From positions 62,001 to 126,000 of the forward strand of contig NZ_QMFY01000016.1 of the NCBI RefSeq assembly GCF_003286915.1: a DNA stretch of 64,000 nt, written 5' to 3'. Positions within the stretch are counted from its first letter, which is position 1; every line of letters begins with the position of its first letter. This document shows positions 56,552 through 64,000 of the stretch, in pieces. The notes under the pieces were generated by a model. That model was not told where the DNA came from and did not search any database. It saw only the letters and a program-made list of their open reading frames with translations. The position numbers were made by a program, and so were the translations under genes. Origin of the DNA: Pseudochryseolinea flava (lineage in GTDB: Bacteria > Bacteroidota > Bacteroidia > Cytophagales > Cyclobacteriaceae).

Positions 56552-56579
56552 AATAGGGAGTGTAATGCTCCCTATTTTT
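56552..56579 (+). terminator. Terminator after the flavoprotein gene, overlapping the hisIE end
   Basis: AATAGGGAG (56552-56560) / CTCCCTATT (56568-56576), 9 perfect pairs, 7-base loop, then a T-run to 56579. It lies inside the last codons of the convergent hisIE gene. Confidence 0.85.
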
Positions 56580-57177
56580 GTTTACCGTGACGTTGTTTTA
56601 AAATGTCTTCAACTTGTGATAGAGAATATCCTTTCGCACTAAGGAGTACCAAATAATGATACATTAAATCAGCAGCTTCATTGAGGAACAACGATTCGTT
56701 ATTGTCTTTCGCTTCGATAACAAGCTCCACAGCCTCTTCACCAACTTTCTGAGCAACTTTGTTAATGCCCGCGCTGAATAGCTTATTGGTGTAAGAACCT
56801 TCTTGCGGATTGTTTTTCCGATCGGTAATTAATGCTTGCAACGCATGAAGACTGAACTCTTGGTTAGTTTCATTAAAACATGTATCGGCGCCGGTATGAC
56901 ATGTTGGACCGATAGGTTTTGCTTTAACGAGCAACGTGTCTTGATCACAATCGATAAGCATTTCGACTAGTTCAAGGTAGTGTCCTGAAGTTTCGCCTTT
57001 CGTCCATAGCCTATCTTTGGTGCGGCTATAGAAAGTAACTTTATTTTCGCGTAATGTTTTGTTGTAGGCCTCTTCGTTCATGAATCCGACCATCAGCACA
57101 CGACGTGTAACAGCATCTTGTACAACGGCGGGTACAAGTCCGTTAAGCTTTGAAAAATCAATCGAAAGGTTACTCAT
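56572..57177 (-). CDS. hisIE: Bifunctional phosphoribosyl-AMP cyclohydrolase / phosphoribosyl-ATP pyrophosphatase
   Basis: 201 residues. N-terminal HisI part with zinc-site motifs (LVEMLIDCDQDTLLVKAKPI, CHTGADTCFNE) and C-terminal HisE part (TNKLFSAGINKVAQKVGEEA, ELVIEAKDNN). It performs steps 2 and 3 of histidine synthesis. It is last in the his operon. Its start overlaps the hisF stop by TAATG. The final codons contain a terminator serving the convergent gene. Confidence 0.95.
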   Translation of the reverse strand: MSNLSIDFSKLNGLVPAVVQDAVTRRVLMVGFMNEEAYNKTLRENKVTFYSRTKDRLWTKGETSGHYLELVEMLIDCDQDTLLVKAKPIGPTCHTGADTCFNETNQEFSLHALQALITDRKNNPQEGSYTNKLFSAGINKVAQKVGEEAVELVIEAKDNNESLFLNEAADLMYHYLVLLSAKGYSLSQVEDILKQRHGKQK

Positions 57178-57929
57178 TATCGTATGTGAATTGCTTGTTG
57201 TTTTAGAAATGATTTAAGCTCGGGAATTTTCACTTCTCCGAAATGAAAGATACTTGCGGCAAGCGCGGCGTCTGCTTTTCCTTCTTTGAAGGCACCGATA
57301 AAATGCTCTTTATTGCCAGCTCCGCCGGACGCGATTACCGGAATGCTAAGAATAGCATTTAGTCTAGCGAGTGGGTCAATAGCAAATCCGCTTTTCGTTC
57401 CATCGTGATCCATGCTTGTAAAAAGAATTTCACCGGCACCGCGGTCTTGGCCTTCTTTAGCCCACTCGAAAAGTTTTTTCTCAGTTGCTTTCTTGCCGCC
57501 ATGTGTATGCACCGTCCATTGATCATCAACGCGTCGCGCATCAATAGCGAGTACGATGCATTGCGCGCCGAAAGCTTTCGAGAGTTCGTCGATCAGTCCT
57601 GGATTTCTCACCGCGGCAGAGTTAACACTAACTTTATCGGCACCTGCCTCCAAAAGAGGGGCAACGTCAGCAACGGCGCTGATACCACCACCAACAGTAA
57701 AAGGGATGTTGATGTGTTTAGCAATATCGCGAACGAGCGATGCAAATGTTTTACGTTCTTCGTTTGTAGCCGAAATGTCAAGGAAGACAAGTTCGTCTGC
57801 ACCTTGTTGGGCGTACGCCGAGCCAAGTTCAACAGGATCGCCTGCGTCTCGTATGTTCACGAAATTCACACCCTTAACAGTGCGGCCATCTTTGATATCG
57901 AGACAAGGTATTATTCTTTTGGTAAGCAC
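57177..57929 (-). CDS. hisF: Imidazole glycerol phosphate synthase, cyclase subunit HisF
   Basis: 250 residues from the GTG at 57929, giving the family N-terminus [20 protein letters not shown]. The open frame extends to 58010, but that part overlaps hisA and does not look like HisF. The TIM-barrel motifs are [21 protein letters not shown] and [11 protein letters not shown]. It joins PRFAR and HisH-made ammonia to give IGP and AICAR. It starts 10 bases after the hisA stop. Confidence 0.95.
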
Positions 57930-57939
57930 GATAGTATTT

Positions 57940-58668
57940 TTAGGCTTGCAGTTGCAATTGAGAGAGTTCTTCAAGTTGAATCTTTCCTTCGTAAATCGCT
58001 TTTCCGACAATTACGCCGTCGACGCCGATACGACGAAGCTCGCGAATGTCGTCCATATTACTCACACCACCACTGGCGATGAGCTGGAGCTGCGGGAAAG
58101 TGAGGAGCAATGTTTTATAAAGTTCGATGTTAGGGCCGCTGAGCATACCGTCAGTTGCGATATCCGTACAGGTAACGAATTCTATACCGTGAGCAAGATA
58201 ACCTTTCAAGAAGGCATTGATGGTTAGTGCTGAGTCTTCTTGCCATCCGCTGATGGAGATCATTTCATTTTTTACATCAGCAGAAAGTATAATTTTCTTC
58301 TTTCCGAATTTCTGTATCCACGATTTTACCTTTTGAGGTTCCTTTACCGCGATACTTCCGAGATTAACTTGTTGAATACCGCGATCAAATAATCCTTGAA
58401 TCTCTTCTTCGGTTTTGATACCGCCACCAAAGTCTACTTCCAGTTTGGTTGCCGCCGTGATTGATTCGACAACTTTCCAGTTAATTACTTTGCCTGCTTT
58501 GGCACCGTCAAGATCAACAAGGTGTAGGTATTTGATACCCGCGTCTTCGAAGGATTTAGCGACTTCAGCAGGATTCTCATTGTAAATGGTTTTACGTCCA
58601 TAATCGCCTTGCGTGAGACGAACGCATTTACCATCAATAATGTCGATTGCAGGAATAATTCTCATCAT
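57940..58668 (-). CDS. hisA: ProFAR isomerase
   Basis: 242 residues of the HisA TIM barrel: [43 protein letters not shown] and [12 protein letters not shown]. It isomerises ProFAR to PRFAR, step 4. The start overlaps the hisH stop by ATGA (two successive ATG codons). Its tail [12 protein letters not shown] is ordinary. Confidence 0.95.
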
Positions 58669-59249
58669 TTTAAAAAGCTTTTAAGTACACGTTCACCGGC
58701 TTCTGCTGATTTTTCAGGGTGAAATTGTACGGCGTGGAAATTATCTCTTTTCATCGCCGCACTAAACGGAACGATATAGTCAGTACTCGCAGCGGTGTTG
58801 GGATTCACGGGTACGTAGTAGCTGTGCACAAAATAGATGAACTCGCCTTCTAACGACGGATCGAGCCAAGAATCTTTTAGCCGCAGCTGGTTCCATCCCA
58901 TGTGTGGTACTTTTTGGTCTTGTGCCGTTGGCTTAAACAGTTTTACCGACTCATCAAAAATGCCTAGGCACTCCGTTGCGTTCTCTTCCGAAAACGTACA
59001 CATCAGCTGCATGCCGAGGCATATGCCGAGCACGGGCTGTTTGAGGTCACGGATCACCAAGTCGAGTTTTCGGTCGCGAAGGTATTTCATCGTCGTACTG
59101 GCTTCGCCGACACCGGGAAAGATAACTTTGTCTGCGGTCTTTATTTCTTCTGCGTTATCGGTAATATGGAAATCAACGCCGAGTCTTTCTAAGGCGAAAG
59201 AGACCGACTGAATGTTCCCCGCGTTGTATTTAATGATCGCTAGTTTCAT
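58665..59249 (-). CDS. hisH: Imidazole glycerol phosphate synthase, glutaminase subunit HisH
   Basis: 194 residues, class I glutamine amidotransferase. The nucleophile lies in PVLGICLGMQLM and the catalytic His/Glu in AVQFHPEKSAEAG. It supplies ammonia to HisF. It is three bases after hisB and overlaps hisA by four bases, which keeps the two partner subunits in step. Confidence 0.95.
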   Translation of the reverse strand: MKLAIIKYNAGNIQSVSFALERLGVDFHITDNAEEIKTADKVIFPGVGEASTTMKYLRDRKLDLVIRDLKQPVLGICLGMQLMCTFSEENATECLGIFDESVKLFKPTAQDQKVPHMGWNQLRLKDSWLDPSLEGEFIYFVHSYYVPVNPNTAASTDYIVPFSAAMKRDNFHAVQFHPEKSAEAGERVLKSFLK

Positions 59250-59252
59250 AGG

Positions 59253-60368
59253 TTATAGAACACCCTTGGTTGATGGAAGTTGATTACCTTCTTTCTTTAC
59301 CGACATCTTGATGGCTTTTGCGAACGCTTTGAATATCGCTTCAATTTTGTGATGTTCGTTTGTGCCTTCTACTTTTACATTGAGATTACTCTTCGATGTG
59401 TCGGAGAATGATTTGAAGAAATGATAAAACATTTCTGTCGGCATTTCGCCGATCTTCTCGCGTTTAAATTCGGCATCCCAAACAATCCACGGGCGCCCTC
59501 CGAAATCGATGGCTACTTGAGCAAGGCAATCATCCATGGGCAAACAAAATCCATAACGTTCGATGCCACGTTTGTCGCCAAGCGCTTTAATAAAGGCTTC
59601 GCCTAAGGCGAGTGCTGTATCTTCAATAGTATGGTGCTCATCGATATGCAGATCACCCTTTACGTTTATTTTTAAGTCGATATTGCCATGACGCGCGAGT
59701 TGATCGAGCATGTGATCGAAAAATCCCAACCCGGTATGGATTTCAGATTTTCCTTGTCCATCGAGGTTGATGGTGATGTCGATGTCGGTTTCTTTTGTTG
59801 TTCGGCGTACTGAAGCAACGCGCGCAGGAGAAGTTACGGTTCGATAGATGTCGCTCCAATCGGTGGACGTAAGCGCGCAAAATGACGTGAGGTTTTTCTC
59901 TTGTAGTTTTTCAACAAGGCTGCCATTATTGATAAAGATAGCTTTCGCACCCAAGTTTTTAGCAAGCTCCACATCAGTAACACGATCACCGATCACGTAT
60001 GAATTTGCAAGGTCATACGCACCGGTCATGTACGCGCCAAGCATGCCTGTGCCTGGTTTACGAGTTGGTTTATTTTCGTGTGGGAAACTTTTGTCAATCA
60101 GCGTATCATTGAAACGAATGCCTTCGTTTTCAAAAGCTTTCACCATCTTGTTGTGTGCTGGCCAAAAAGTATTTTCAGGAAAACGATCAGTGCCTAGTCC
60201 ATCTTGATTTGTAATCATCACCAATTCATAATCTGATTCTTTTGCAATTTTAGACAACCACGTAAAAACGCCGGGATAGAATTCCAGTTTTTCGAGACTA
60301 TCGATTTGTTCATCCGCGGGTTCGAGGATCAGTGTGCCATCGCGATCGATGAAGAGTGCCTTTTTCAT
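59253..60368 (-). CDS. hisB: Bifunctional histidinol-phosphatase / imidazoleglycerol-phosphate dehydratase
   Basis: 371 residues. The N-terminal HAD phosphatase domain has FIDRDGTLI (D8, D10) and ends about residue 165; the C-terminal dehydratase domain has [20 protein letters not shown] and [18 protein letters not shown]. It carries out steps 6 and 8. The bifunctional form is common in Bacteroidota. It overlaps hisC by ATGA. Confidence 0.95.
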
Positions 60369-61417
60369 TTTGATAAATCTTTTAATGCTTGAAGTAATCG
60401 TTTATTCTCTTCTGGTGTACCGACGGTAATGCGAAGACAATTTAAACACAATGCTACGCTTGAACGATTACGGACGATAATTTTCTGATCGGTAAGTTTT
60501 TGGTAAGTGCCATTGGCGTCATCGACCTTAATCAAAATGAAATTGGCATCAGATGGATAAACCTTCTGTACCATTTTCACACTTGGCAGCGCTTCTATCA
60601 GGGCATCTCGCTCGCTGGTAATTTCGGCAACCATGGCATCCTTCTTTTGTACGTCCTTAAGCGCTTCTAACGCATGCGCTTGTGTCGCAAGGTTAATGTT
60701 GTAGGGATATTTTACCTTATTCAAAATTCCGATAATCGCTGGCGAAGCAAAGCACATCCCCAGTCGTAAGCCGGCGAGTCCCCAGGCTTTAGAAAAAGTT
60801 TGAAGTATGACGAGGTTTTCATAATTAGAAAGTTCAGCAGCAAAACTTTCACTACTGGTGAAATCGATATACGCTTCGTCGATGACAACCAGTCCGTTAA
60901 ATTGCGCTAACACCGTTTTAATTTTTTCGCGCGTTAAGAGATTTGCTGTTGGATTGTTGGGGCTGCAAAGGAAAATGATCTTGGTTTGATCGTTTACTTG
61001 CTTGAATAATGATTCAAGATCGAGGTCGTAGTCCGCCGTGAGTAGGACTTTCTGAATCGTGACTGCATTGACGTCAGCGCACACGGCATACATGCCATAG
61101 GTTGGCTCTGTAATGAGTATGGCGTCGCGGTTGGGTTCACAGAAAGCGCGGATTAAAACATCGATGGCCTCGTCGCTACCATTGCCTAAAAAGATTTGCG
61201 TAGGATCAATGCCTTTTAGTTTAGCAAGCTTCGTTTTTACTTCCCATTGCAGCGGATCAGGATAACGGTTAAAAGCCGAGTTGTATGGATTTTCATTTGC
61301 GTCGAGGAAAACTTCTGCTTCGCCCTTAAACTCATCGCGTGCGGATGAGTACGGCTTCATGGTTAAAATGTTCTTCCTAACGAGCTGCTTAATATCGATT
61401 TGTGTCTTTGGTTTCAT
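60365..61417 (-). CDS. hisC: Histidinol-phosphate aminotransferase
   Basis: 350 residues, class I/II PLP aminotransferase. Landmarks: [51 protein letters not shown] and the PLP lysine in [20 protein letters not shown]. It makes histidinol phosphate from imidazole acetol phosphate. It is 12 bases after hisD. Confidence 0.95.
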
Positions 61418-61429
61418 AATTGTAAAAGA

Positions 61430-62722
61430 TTACTGGCTATTGCGGATGTTGTCGAGTCGAACTGTTACGGCACGACGATGTCCGACCAGTTGTTCAGCTT
61501 CTGCCATTTGTTCAACAACAGGTCCCAGTGATTGTAATCCTTCTTTTGAGAGCTCTTGATAGGTGATGTACTTCATAAAGCTTTCGAGTGAAACGCCGGC
61601 AAACGACTTTGCAAACCCATTGGTAGGTAGCGTATGATTCGTTCCACTGGCATAGTCACCGATCGATTCAGGTGAATAGTTCCCTAAAAATACGGATCCC
61701 GCATTCGTGATGGTGTCGGCAAGCGCGATCGGGTTTTCTGTACTGATGATCAAGTGCTCTGGTGCGTAAGCGTTGATGAATGCGGTGGCTTGGTTTATAT
61801 CGTCGAAGGTAACGACACGGCTATTGGCCAATGCTTTCTCTGCGATCGCTTTTCTTGGCAATGTTGAAAGTTGTTTTTCTACTTCTACCTTCACCGAGTC
61901 AACGAGACTTGTGTCGTTAAGAACAAGTATCACTTGACTATCTTCACCGTGCTCGGCTTGTGAGAGTAAGTCTGCAGCAATAAAAGCAGGGTTGGCTGAC
62001 TTATCAGCCCACACGAGTACTTCAGAAGGACCAGCAGGCATATCGATAGCAACGCCCTCTTCGGTCACCAGCTGTTTTGCTTTTGTGACGTATTGATTTC
62101 CTGGGCCGAAAATTTTATAAACATTAGGGATCGTTTCTGTTCCGTAAGCCATCGCGGCAATGGCTTGTGCACCGCCGACTTTATATATCTTTTTGACACC
62201 AACAAGTTGTGCGGCGAAGAGTATTGCAGCATTTATTTTCCCTGATTTGTCTGGCGGTGTGCACAAGACTACTTCTTTGCATCCTGCGAGATTGGCTGGA
62301 ACGCCGAGCATGAGCACCGTAGAAAACAGCGGTGCCGATCCACCAGGGATATAAATCCCAACCTTGTCGATGGGGACACCTTTTCTCCAGCACGTTACAC
62401 CGGGCATAGTTTCCACTTTCAGAACATCGCGTTGTTGTGCTGCATGGAATTTCTGGATGTTGCCGGCTGCGACTTCAATGGCGTTCTTTAGCGTTGGGGA
62501 TAACGACATTGTTGCGTCTTCAATCTCCTGCGCTGACACACGAAGGTCGCCGATCGATACTTTATCGAATTGAAGTGTCAGTTCGCGCAAAGCTTCGTCA
62601 CCAGATTTCTTCACGCGGTTTAACACATTACGAACTGCGCCTTCAAGGAATTCCAAGGCGATCTGCGGGCGCGTGGTGAGTTCGGTCCAATCGGTGGTGG
62701 GCGGGTTGTTGAATATTTTCAT
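61430..62722 (-). CDS. hisD: Histidinol dehydrogenase
   Basis: 430 residues. The HisD signature IDMPAGPSEVLVWADKSANP and the zinc-binding region (DLLSQAEHGEDSQVI, PEHLIIST, GTNHTLPTNG) are complete. It oxidises histidinol to histidine, the last two steps. It is 26 bases after hisG. Confidence 0.96.
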   Translation of the reverse strand: MKIFNNPPTTDWTELTTRPQIALEFLEGAVRNVLNRVKKSGDEALRELTLQFDKVSIGDLRVSAQEIEDATMSLSPTLKNAIEVAAGNIQKFHAAQQRDVLKVETMPGVTCWRKGVPIDKVGIYIPGGSAPLFSTVLMLGVPANLAGCKEVVLCTPPDKSGKINAAILFAAQLVGVKKIYKVGGAQAIAAMAYGTETIPNVYKIFGPGNQYVTKAKQLVTEEGVAIDMPAGPSEVLVWADKSANPAFIAADLLSQAEHGEDSQVILVLNDTSLVDSVKVEVEKQLSTLPRKAIAEKALANSRVVTFDDINQATAFINAYAPEHLIISTENPIALADTITNAGSVFLGNYSPESIGDYASGTNHTLPTNGFAKSFAGVSLESFMKYITYQELSKEGLQSLGPVVEQMAEAEQLVGHRRAVTVRLDNIRNSQ

Positions 62723-62748: not shown

Positions 62749-63609
62749 CTACACGATCATTTTTTCGATTGGAACAACGAGGATACCTTCTGCGCCAAAG
62801 CCTCTGAGCTGATCGATCTTTTCCCAGAAATCATTTTCGTCAACGACAGAATGTAGTGAGCTCCATCCCTGTCGCGCCAAAGGGATGATTGTTGGACTCT
62901 TCATGCCAGGAATAACCGATGTGATTTTATCAATCGCGTCGTTGGGGATGTTCATCAAAATGTATTTGTTGTTCTTGGCTTTTTTTACGGCTTCAATTCT
63001 GAATAGTAGTTTATCCAAGATTTTTTGTTTCTCCGCATCGAGATTTGGATTGGCAATGATGACAGCTTCTGACTGCATCACAACTTCAACTTCTTTTAAT
63101 CCATTGCTAAGCAAAGTACTGCCCGTACTTACAATGTCGCAGATGGCATCAGCGAGACCAATTCCAGGTGCAATTTCTACGGAGCCGCTGATTTCGTGGA
63201 TGCCTGCTTCAACACCATGTTTGGCTAAGAATCCTTTTACGATTTCAGGGTAGGAGGTAGCGATGTTTTTACCGTGCAGCCATTTTACGCCGGTGTAATT
63301 TTCGGACCGAGGAACCGCCATGGCAAGTCTGCATTTTGCAAAGTCAAGACGTTTTACAATCTGATTCTGTTTCTTCTTTTCAGCGAAGATATTTTCTCCA
63401 ACGATACCGACATCGGCAACTTTATCTTCAACATATTGAGGAATGTCATCATCGCGAAGGAAGAGAACTTCTACAGGGAAATTTCTTGCTTGTGTTTTCA
63501 GTTGATCTTTTCCGTTGCTGAAAGAGAGTCCACTTTCTTTGAGAAGTTCGAGAGATCCCTCTTGAAGGCGACCGGATTTTTGAATTGCGATTCGGAGTAA
63601 TGTGCTCAT
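62749..63609 (-). CDS. hisG: ATP phosphoribosyltransferase, long form
   Basis: 286 residues. It has the long-form organisation with a C-terminal regulatory ACT-like domain (about 210-286, NKYILMNIPNDAIDKITSVI), so it is hexameric and does not need HisZ. Motifs: VEDKVADVGIVGENIFAEKK, and ICDIVSTGSTLLSNGLKEVE for PRPP binding. It commits PRPP and ATP to histidine. It is first in the operon and lies about 40 bases after a leader attenuator, and its activity is typically inhibited by histidine. Confidence 0.96.
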   Translation of the reverse strand: MSTLLRIAIQKSGRLQEGSLELLKESGLSFSNGKDQLKTQARNFPVEVLFLRDDDIPQYVEDKVADVGIVGENIFAEKKKQNQIVKRLDFAKCRLAMAVPRSENYTGVKWLHGKNIATSYPEIVKGFLAKHGVEAGIHEISGSVEIAPGIGLADAICDIVSTGSTLLSNGLKEVEVVMQSEAVIIANPNLDAEKQKILDKLLFRIEAVKKAKNNKYILMNIPNDAIDKITSVIPGMKSPTIIPLARQGWSSLHSVVDENDFWEKIDQLRGFGAEGILVVPIEKMIV

Positions 63610-63648
63610 AACTTGGTTTCAATGTTTTCCCGCCAAGGGCAGGAGGTC

Positions 63649-63679
63649 AAAAAAAAAGGCTTGCCACACGTGACAAGCC
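63649..63679 (-). terminator. Attenuator terminator of the his operon
   Basis: On the minus strand GGCTTGTCA-CGTG-TGGCAAGCC forms nine pairs (one G-U), followed by T9 (complement of A at 63649-63657). It sits between the His-rich leader peptide and hisG, the position of a transcription attenuator. Confidence 0.88.
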
Positions 63680-63702
63680 CATTTAAATCTTTTATGCTAG
63701 AA

Positions 63703-63780
63703 TCAATGTAAAGCAATGCCACGCATCATGTGAGTCACATGGTGATGGTGGTGGAAGCCTTTGTTGATTGTGTTGTTCAT
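63703..63780 (-). CDS. hisL: Histidine operon leader peptide
   Basis: 25 codons: MNNTINKGFHHHHHVTHMMRGIALH. Seven of 25 residues are histidine, including five in a row (residues 10-14). The stop is about 24 bases before the attenuator stem. The segment GCGTGGCA (minus; 63724-63717) can pair with TGTCACGT in the 5' half of the terminator (8 pairs, two wobbles), giving an antiterminator when ribosomes stall at histidine codons. A hairpin CATGTG-ACT-CACATG (63727-63741) overlaps the last His codons and could pause RNA polymerase. The frame is open further upstream, but MNNT is the natural start. Confidence 0.85.
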   Translation of the reverse strand: MNNTINKGFHHHHHVTHMMRGIALH

Positions 63781-63821
63781 ATTTGAAATCGGATACGAAG
63801 AAAGCAAGTAGATGTGAGAAG

Positions 63822-64000
63822 TCAAAATGTTCTCCTCCCTTTTAATAGTAGAAACGATAAAAAAATGAGCATTGCTGTAAAAGCTATCATGAAAAGGAAG
63901 CCTAACCAACGATCGCTAAAGGTGTCAAAGACTACATTGCTATTTTTTTCAGGGTCAATAAAGAGGACAACGGTATCGCCCACATGATACGTTCCTGCTG
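63822..64000 (-). CDS. DUF3592-like membrane protein, C-terminal part (runs off the right edge)
   Basis: The minus strand is open from the window edge to a TGA at 63824-63822, 58 codons. The sequence reads YHVGDTVVLFIDPEKNSNVV, then a membrane helix (LGFLFMIAFTAMLIFLSFLL) and a basic end KGRRTF. Such a YxVGDxVxVxxDP segment before a last helix is the DUF3592 pattern. It ends 41 bases before the his leader peptide, so his transcription could start inside this gene's end or read through from it. Confidence 0.7.
   Translation of the reverse strand, partial: AGTYHVGDTVVLFIDPEKNSNVVFDTFSDRWLGFLFMIAFTAMLIFLSFLLLKGRRTF

Follow-up and report, generated by a model that had tools for sequence, protein, structure and literature searches.

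The his operon and the leader region upstream of hisG

The window, i.e. the whole 64,000-nucleotide stretch of Pseudochryseolinea flava DNA that was analysed, carries on its minus strand a his operon of eight genes, hisG to hisIE, each of which scored above cut-off with its NCBIfam model. The hisG gene is 88% identical to hisG of Dawidia soli and Ohtaekwangia koreensis, both of which we take to be Cytophagales. A preliminary description of this DNA had listed, before hisG, a 25-residue ORF with seven histidines, a 9-bp terminator followed by a U9 tract, and a complementary segment able to form eight pairs with the terminator 5' half, and all three are present there on the minus strand (Table 1). 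The His residues are encoded by codons 10-14, 17 and 25; the terminator stem has nine pairs plus an extra closing G-U, which uses the first U of the U9 tract; and segment 2 (GCGUGGCA) can form eight pairs, G-U included, with segment 3 (UGUCACGU). The leader stop codon lies 93 nt from hisG, with the terminator in between.

Table 1. Positions in the window of the his operon, its leader and the predicted elements of the leader RNA.
Feature	Positions	Strand	Remarks
Candidate promoter	63796..63827	-	TTTTGAC 63827-63821 and TTTCTTCG 63803-63796; TTTCTTCG 19 nt after TTG
Leader peptide ORF, MNNTINKGFHHHHHVTHMMRGIALH	63703..63780	-	ATG at 63780, stop 63705-63703; 25 codons
AAAGGCUUCCAC, mimic of the terminator 5' arm	63751..63762	-	can pair with the terminator 3' arm
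Five-His codon run, presumed sensor	63739..63753	-	leader nt 28-42
Segment 2, GCGUGGCA, antiterminator 5' half	63717..63724	-	within the ORF, codons 19-22
Segment 3, UGUCACGU	63668..63675	-	common to antiterminator (2:3) and terminator (3:4)
Intrinsic terminator stem-loop (3:4), GGGCUUGUCA-CGUG-UGGCAAGCCU	63657..63680	-	-14.0 kcal/mol
Terminator U9 tract	63649..63657	-	read from sequence
hisG, first structural gene	62749..63609	-	TIGR00070 and TIGR03455 above cut-off
hisD, hisC, hisB (bifunctional), hisH, hisA, hisF, hisIE	56572..62722	-	remainder of the operon

The candidate promoter is presumably a degenerate variant of the -33/-7 promoter known from Bacteroidota. The same layout (TTTTGAC...TTTATTCG) is found at two related loci, L003 and L004. 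The TAnnTTTG motif is absent at the candidate promoter site of the window leader; among 161 leaders it occurs within 60 nt of the leader start in 67, compared with 4.6% for shuffled sequences.

Conservation of the leader and its terminator

The hisG loci that we refer to as the named set are the best 80 of 415 found, and they therefore lean towards close relatives. Using a strict test (a short ORF with at least four His in seven residues, located no more than 300 nt upstream of hisG), 77 of these best 80 of 415 loci passed, as did 75 of the 109 loci in a sample of the phylum. In the controls the test was passed by 3 of 940 sequences shuffled by dinucleotides, by none of 188 antisense strands and by 4 of the 420 tiles, each 300 nt long, taken from the window itself. 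The three misses in the named set are L052, L022 and L041. The leader of L052 is present, farther upstream, and hence the count for the named set is 78 of 80 rather than 77; in the other two the contig ends early (L022) or the leader has two His (L041). Relatives lacking a His-rich ORF at this place had been put forward in the preliminary description as grounds for abandoning its reading, and the named set shows the ORF to be kept there. The L041 leader, MKYTQNIFRQHHATSLLGGFMF, has only two adjacent His; the stem and T tract typical of the other leaders lie downstream of it.

A His run by itself is not rare and proves little, since (CAY)4 occurs at 120 sites in the 6.5-Mb genome (27 for the reversed control); it is the place, the combination of parts and the conservation that exceed chance. 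Searched against the genus, model R1 recovered the hisG leader of all seven genomes with E-values of 1.4e-11 or lower, most of these leaders having been in its training alignment; for further copies within the genus the next best match had an E-value of 0.002.

The phylum sample comprised 198 genomes, of which 172 have hisG, the window's genome included, and from the remaining 171 hisG loci 109 were examined (29 from the search and 80 chosen for family breadth). Among these 109, 24 have no ORF with even three His in seven residues within 300 nt, a level that was reached by 36 of 940 shuffles. All seven loci of f16, a large family represented by just these seven in the sample, are among the 24, and the element is consequently not present in every lineage of the phylum.

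For the terminator analysis 196 stretches (six of which are second copies of genus genomes) yielded 172 leaders with at least three His in seven residues. A hairpin of -9 kcal/mol or lower with a T tract was predicted in 137 of the 172 and a weaker hairpin in six, and in 29 the script detected no hairpin with a T tract; two of the latter, L060 and L071, have a comparable stem whose T tract is short or interrupted. For the clade alignment 54 sequences qualified and 52 were used, L016 and L023, whose ORFs end early, being excluded. In this alignment 97.1% of the cells of the terminator helix are paired and 8 of 10 pairs show double-sided changes. Between clades the terminator 5' arms differ widely, with types such as GGCUUGCC, CCCGUUUGAG, CCCCGGC and GCUUACC.

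Two groups of leaders look different at the hairpin. In family f4 (L136-L140) the leaders upstream of hisG are His-rich and the hairpin is absent or very weak. Among L060-L081, mostly Chitinophaga/Chitinophagaceae, several leaders ending in LPxG have, by eye, an apparent hairpin across the stop codon (UACC...GGGUAG), possibly a counterpart of the enterobacterial 1:2 structure.

A search of positions 63000-64000 against Rfam gave seven matches with E-values up to 10, none of them near the gathering score, and the best leader-type match was Thr_leader with 17.7 bits (55 needed). Neither His_leader (RF00514; gathering score 49 bits) nor the T-box leader (RF00230) is among these matches, and the element was accordingly not assigned to either family. 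Over the phylum, using strict filters, no RF00514 match above cut-off was obtained in the 198 genomes among the matches listed; matches at E-values up to 1 occur in at least 117 of the 198, and one of those listed was noticed just upstream of a hisG gene (G180:C12:79751-79856, 35.2 bits).

These searches bear on the idea of direct sensing by the leader RNA, in the manner of a riboswitch or T-box, of a ligand, a protein or uncharged tRNA, with no part played by the ORF. T-boxes control his genes in some Firmicutes and Actinobacteria, according to the part of PMC9413887 that we draw on; here no Rfam family reaches the gathering score and neither T-box nor His_leader appears up to an E-value of 10. 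What is conserved is the run of His codons, and outside the two helices the aligned leaders show little sequence conservation. We give direct sensing almost no probability.

Antiterminator pairing, spacing and the proposed switch

From the 137 leaders with a good hairpin, 124 distinct leaders were obtained for the pairing tests. The stretch that follows the last His run pairs with the terminator 5' arm of its own leader with a mean of -15.0 kcal/mol, compared with -8.2 kcal/mol for shuffled stretches and -10.5 kcal/mol with arms swapped from other leaders; 2000 label permutations of this segment-2/arm duplex gave a mean of -10.5 (sd 0.25) and a lowest value of -11.4. Taken leader by leader, the pairing falls below the 5% shuffle level in 83% of the 124 and below the 1% level in 49%, and 17% lie above the 5% level. 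That pairing with the own arm is kept although the arms differ so widely between clades amounts to covariation on a broad scale.

Within the 52-sequence clade alignment 83.7% of the antiterminator cells are paired and 3 of 8 pairs show double changes, a number equalled by 268 of 500 shuffles; when the helix was slid by +3 columns 4 pairs and 17 cells were counted, compared with 3 pairs and 11 cells unslid. The covariation score nevertheless exceeds those of all 500 shuffles and all slid versions. The covariation analysis that the preliminary description recommended as a check is hence positive for the terminator, whereas for the antiterminator the support from the clade alignment is modest and that from the comparison across clades is strong.

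The position of segment 2 is also constrained. In 71% of the 124 leaders (10.8% of shuffles) the distance from the last His run to the start of its core is 12-16 nt, and the core ends a median of 9 nt short of the final base of the stop codon. The footprint of a ribosome extends about 12 nt downstream of the A site, and on this basis a segment starting at 12-16 nt would be free when the ribosome is stalled in the His run and covered when it is at the stop codon. Segment 2 encodes the C-terminal residues of the peptide, which are MRG, LPIG or CSQA in different groups. The sequence AAAGGCUUCCAC, which mimics the terminator 5' arm, has a shuffle fraction of 0.01 or lower in six distinct leaders of the genus, while over the whole set of 124 the fraction is below 0.05 in 15%; the mimic stands out in the genus only, not generally.

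The peptide itself might act in trans, or translation of the leader might serve re-initiation at hisG. In the parts of the literature that we draw on, the leader peptide peTrpL has been reported to act in trans (PMC7298713), and re-initiation has been proposed for leader genes located 10-14 nt from the next gene (PMC4833913). The distance between the leader stop and hisG noted above, with the terminator between them, and a C-terminal part of the peptide that changes between clades together with the RNA pairing encoded there, make both forms of this explanation extremely unlikely.

The window leader was folded with a masked ribosome, which gives equilibria and not kinetics. With 113-122 nt exposed, the antiterminator pairing probability is 0.97-0.995 for a ribosome at His 1, 3 or 5 and 0.0 for one at His 6 or at the stop. 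With 124 nt or more out, the equilibrium lies on the side of the terminator whether the ribosome sits on a His codon or at the stop. For positions His 1-5 the terminator reaches 0.85-0.87 at 128 nt (antiterminator 0.07-0.10) and 0.88-0.90 at 132 nt; for a ribosome at the stop its probability is 0.88 at 124 nt and only 0.56 at 128 nt. As long transcripts favour the terminator even with the ribosome at His 1-5, the choice between the two structures must be kinetic. Without a ribosome the outcome is mixed at 122-124 nt, and in the long leader antitermination is preferred (0.90 at 128 nt); part of this, in the predicted fold, comes from pairing of AAAGGCUUCCAC with the terminator 3' arm.

The terminator could instead be a fixed dampener, or a stop for an upstream transcript, with the His-rich ORF being incidental. 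The abundance of (CAY)4 in the genome (120 sites) and the equilibrium folds of the full leader, which favour the terminator alike for a ribosome at the His codons or at the stop, are what such an explanation would expect; it leaves unaccounted for the His-rich ORF in place at 78 of the 80 named loci (the best 80 of 415), the matched 2:3 complementarity and the 12-16 nt spacing, and we regard it as very unlikely.

Taken together, the element in the window is very probably a ribosome-mediated transcription attenuator of the his operon. Attenuators of this class have a run of codons for the product amino acid in a short leader ORF, here five consecutive His codons; an intrinsic terminator between that ORF and the first gene, which is present; and an antiterminator free at the stall and masked at the stop, which is seen here by computation only. 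The preliminary description had spoken of a full set of parts for this mode of control, and the observed conservation, complementarity, spacing and terminator covariation support that assessment; judged by its sequence, it would be a real and conserved attenuator of the textbook kind.

From the sequence we infer a promoter, translation of the leader ORF, ribosome stalling, an effect on hisG and a response to histidine, which may be connected as follows. RNA polymerase would start shortly upstream of the leader ATG, with a ribosome translating the leader behind it. When histidine is plentiful the ribosome would reach the stop codon and cover segment 2, which ends 11 nt before it; the 3:4 terminator could then pair and transcription would end ≈40 nt before hisG. 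When charged His-tRNA is scarce the ribosome would stall in the five-His run, and segment 2, beginning 14 nt past the run, would be just outside the stalled ribosome, pair with segment 3 as it emerges, and allow the polymerase to clear the terminator before 3:4 forms.

A switch of this type works only if the ribosome keeps pace with RNA polymerase, and the conserved 12-16 nt spacing is thus evidence at the level of sequence for coupling of transcription and translation in these bacteria. A 2026 list of phyla classed as showing runaway transcription, in the section of the paper cited here, omits Bacteroidota (PMC13323073). The element lends itself to use as a simple reporter of coupling and of charged tRNA-His, and it is outside the reach of the Rfam His_leader model.

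Other leaders and comparison with known systems

Upstream of trpE, six of seven genomes of the genus, the window's own included, have a short ORF containing WWW together with a strong terminator; in the seventh (L255) no such leader was found upstream of trpE. The candidate Trp leader of the own genome, MVKYTTTAWWWQGSKLDRCTALLV (L249:1288-1362; G000:C7), is located ≈4 kb past the right end of the window and has a strong terminator. A trp antiterminator was negative for both leaders tried with the short arm, and with the loop included the shuffle fractions were 0.038-0.062 in five leaders, i.e. borderline. An ILV-rich short ORF, LVIIVILLVKPAGAIVI, with a strong terminator was likewise noted in the own genome (L276:1027-1146; G000:C11). 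This type of ORF and terminator precedes two large ORFs upstream of ilvB in three of four genomes (L276, L278 and L279) and was not found in L277; the ilv antiterminator had a shuffle fraction of 0.018 in one leader. We consider the trp and ilv leaders of the genus as candidates, and their occurrence alongside the his leader speaks in favour of reading the latter as an attenuator. Four stretches around homoserine dehydrogenase (L280-L283), in which the gene start was possibly missed, gave no candidate for a Thr leader.

In family f22 (20 loci, L158-L182) the His codons are spread through the leader ORF and there is no convincing U-tract terminator. Alignment of 17 of these leaders gave no common fold (RNAalifold 3 pairs, -0.46 kcal/mol). 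The start codon is located exactly 4 nt after TAnnTTTG in 8 of the 20 loci, and the transcript may therefore begin at the start codon. It is conceivable, although we hold this tentatively and consider it somewhat doubtful, that attenuation is a general and old control of amino-acid operons in Bacteroidota (his, trp and ilv) acting from very short 5' UTRs, and that in f22 it has turned into a different device with a predicted leaderless ORF, His throughout and no U-tract terminator, operating via Rho or translation.

With respect to earlier work, the abstract of Vitreschak et al. 2004 reportedly mentions attenuators in Bacteroidetes/Chlorobi. This conflicts with a statement from 2010, in the portion of that paper considered here, that leader-peptide systems were, ermC aside, known only in Proteobacteria and Actinobacteria before the authors' own Firmicutes case (PMC2965389). 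The relevant passages of other papers mention leader-like small ORFs in Bacteroides thetaiotaomicron (PMC7366714) and, with regard to Bacteroidota his genes, discuss attenuation just for enterobacteria (PMC8305728). Our literature search, which covered few subscription journals, found no phylum-wide study of such attenuation in Bacteroidota. The preliminary description called this mode less described in the phylum, which is fair as a comparison; it is not undescribed, given that the section cited here of a study of Flavobacterium psychrophilum sees strong indications that amino-acid operons are preceded by leader-peptide attenuators (PMC9723704). The same section describes a 5' element of hisG that is kept in other Flavobacteriaceae and has no Rfam hits; phylum and gene are the same as here, while for hisG the section gives no leader sequence or mechanism, and this element is likely the one we describe.

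The enterobacterial his leader has a short ORF with a His run, a U-tract terminator and an alternative antiterminator, and it adopts a protective fold when no ribosome is present. The element in the window resembles it (RF00514) in all three parts and in its place upstream of hisG. It differs in failing the RF00514 model, in showing no strong 1:2 protective hairpin in our folds, and in that the ribosome-free leader favours antitermination, unlike the enterobacterial protective fold. The his attenuators of the Bacillus cereus group, Eubacteriales and Erysipelotrichales, which belong to another phylum and are likened here by their description rather than by sequence, share with it three to five consecutive His codons, a terminator and an antiterminator, as given in the part of PMC9413887 cited above. 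The mechanism is itself a textbook one; what this analysis usefully adds is its wide spread in the phylum, the constant spacing and the trp and ilv candidates.
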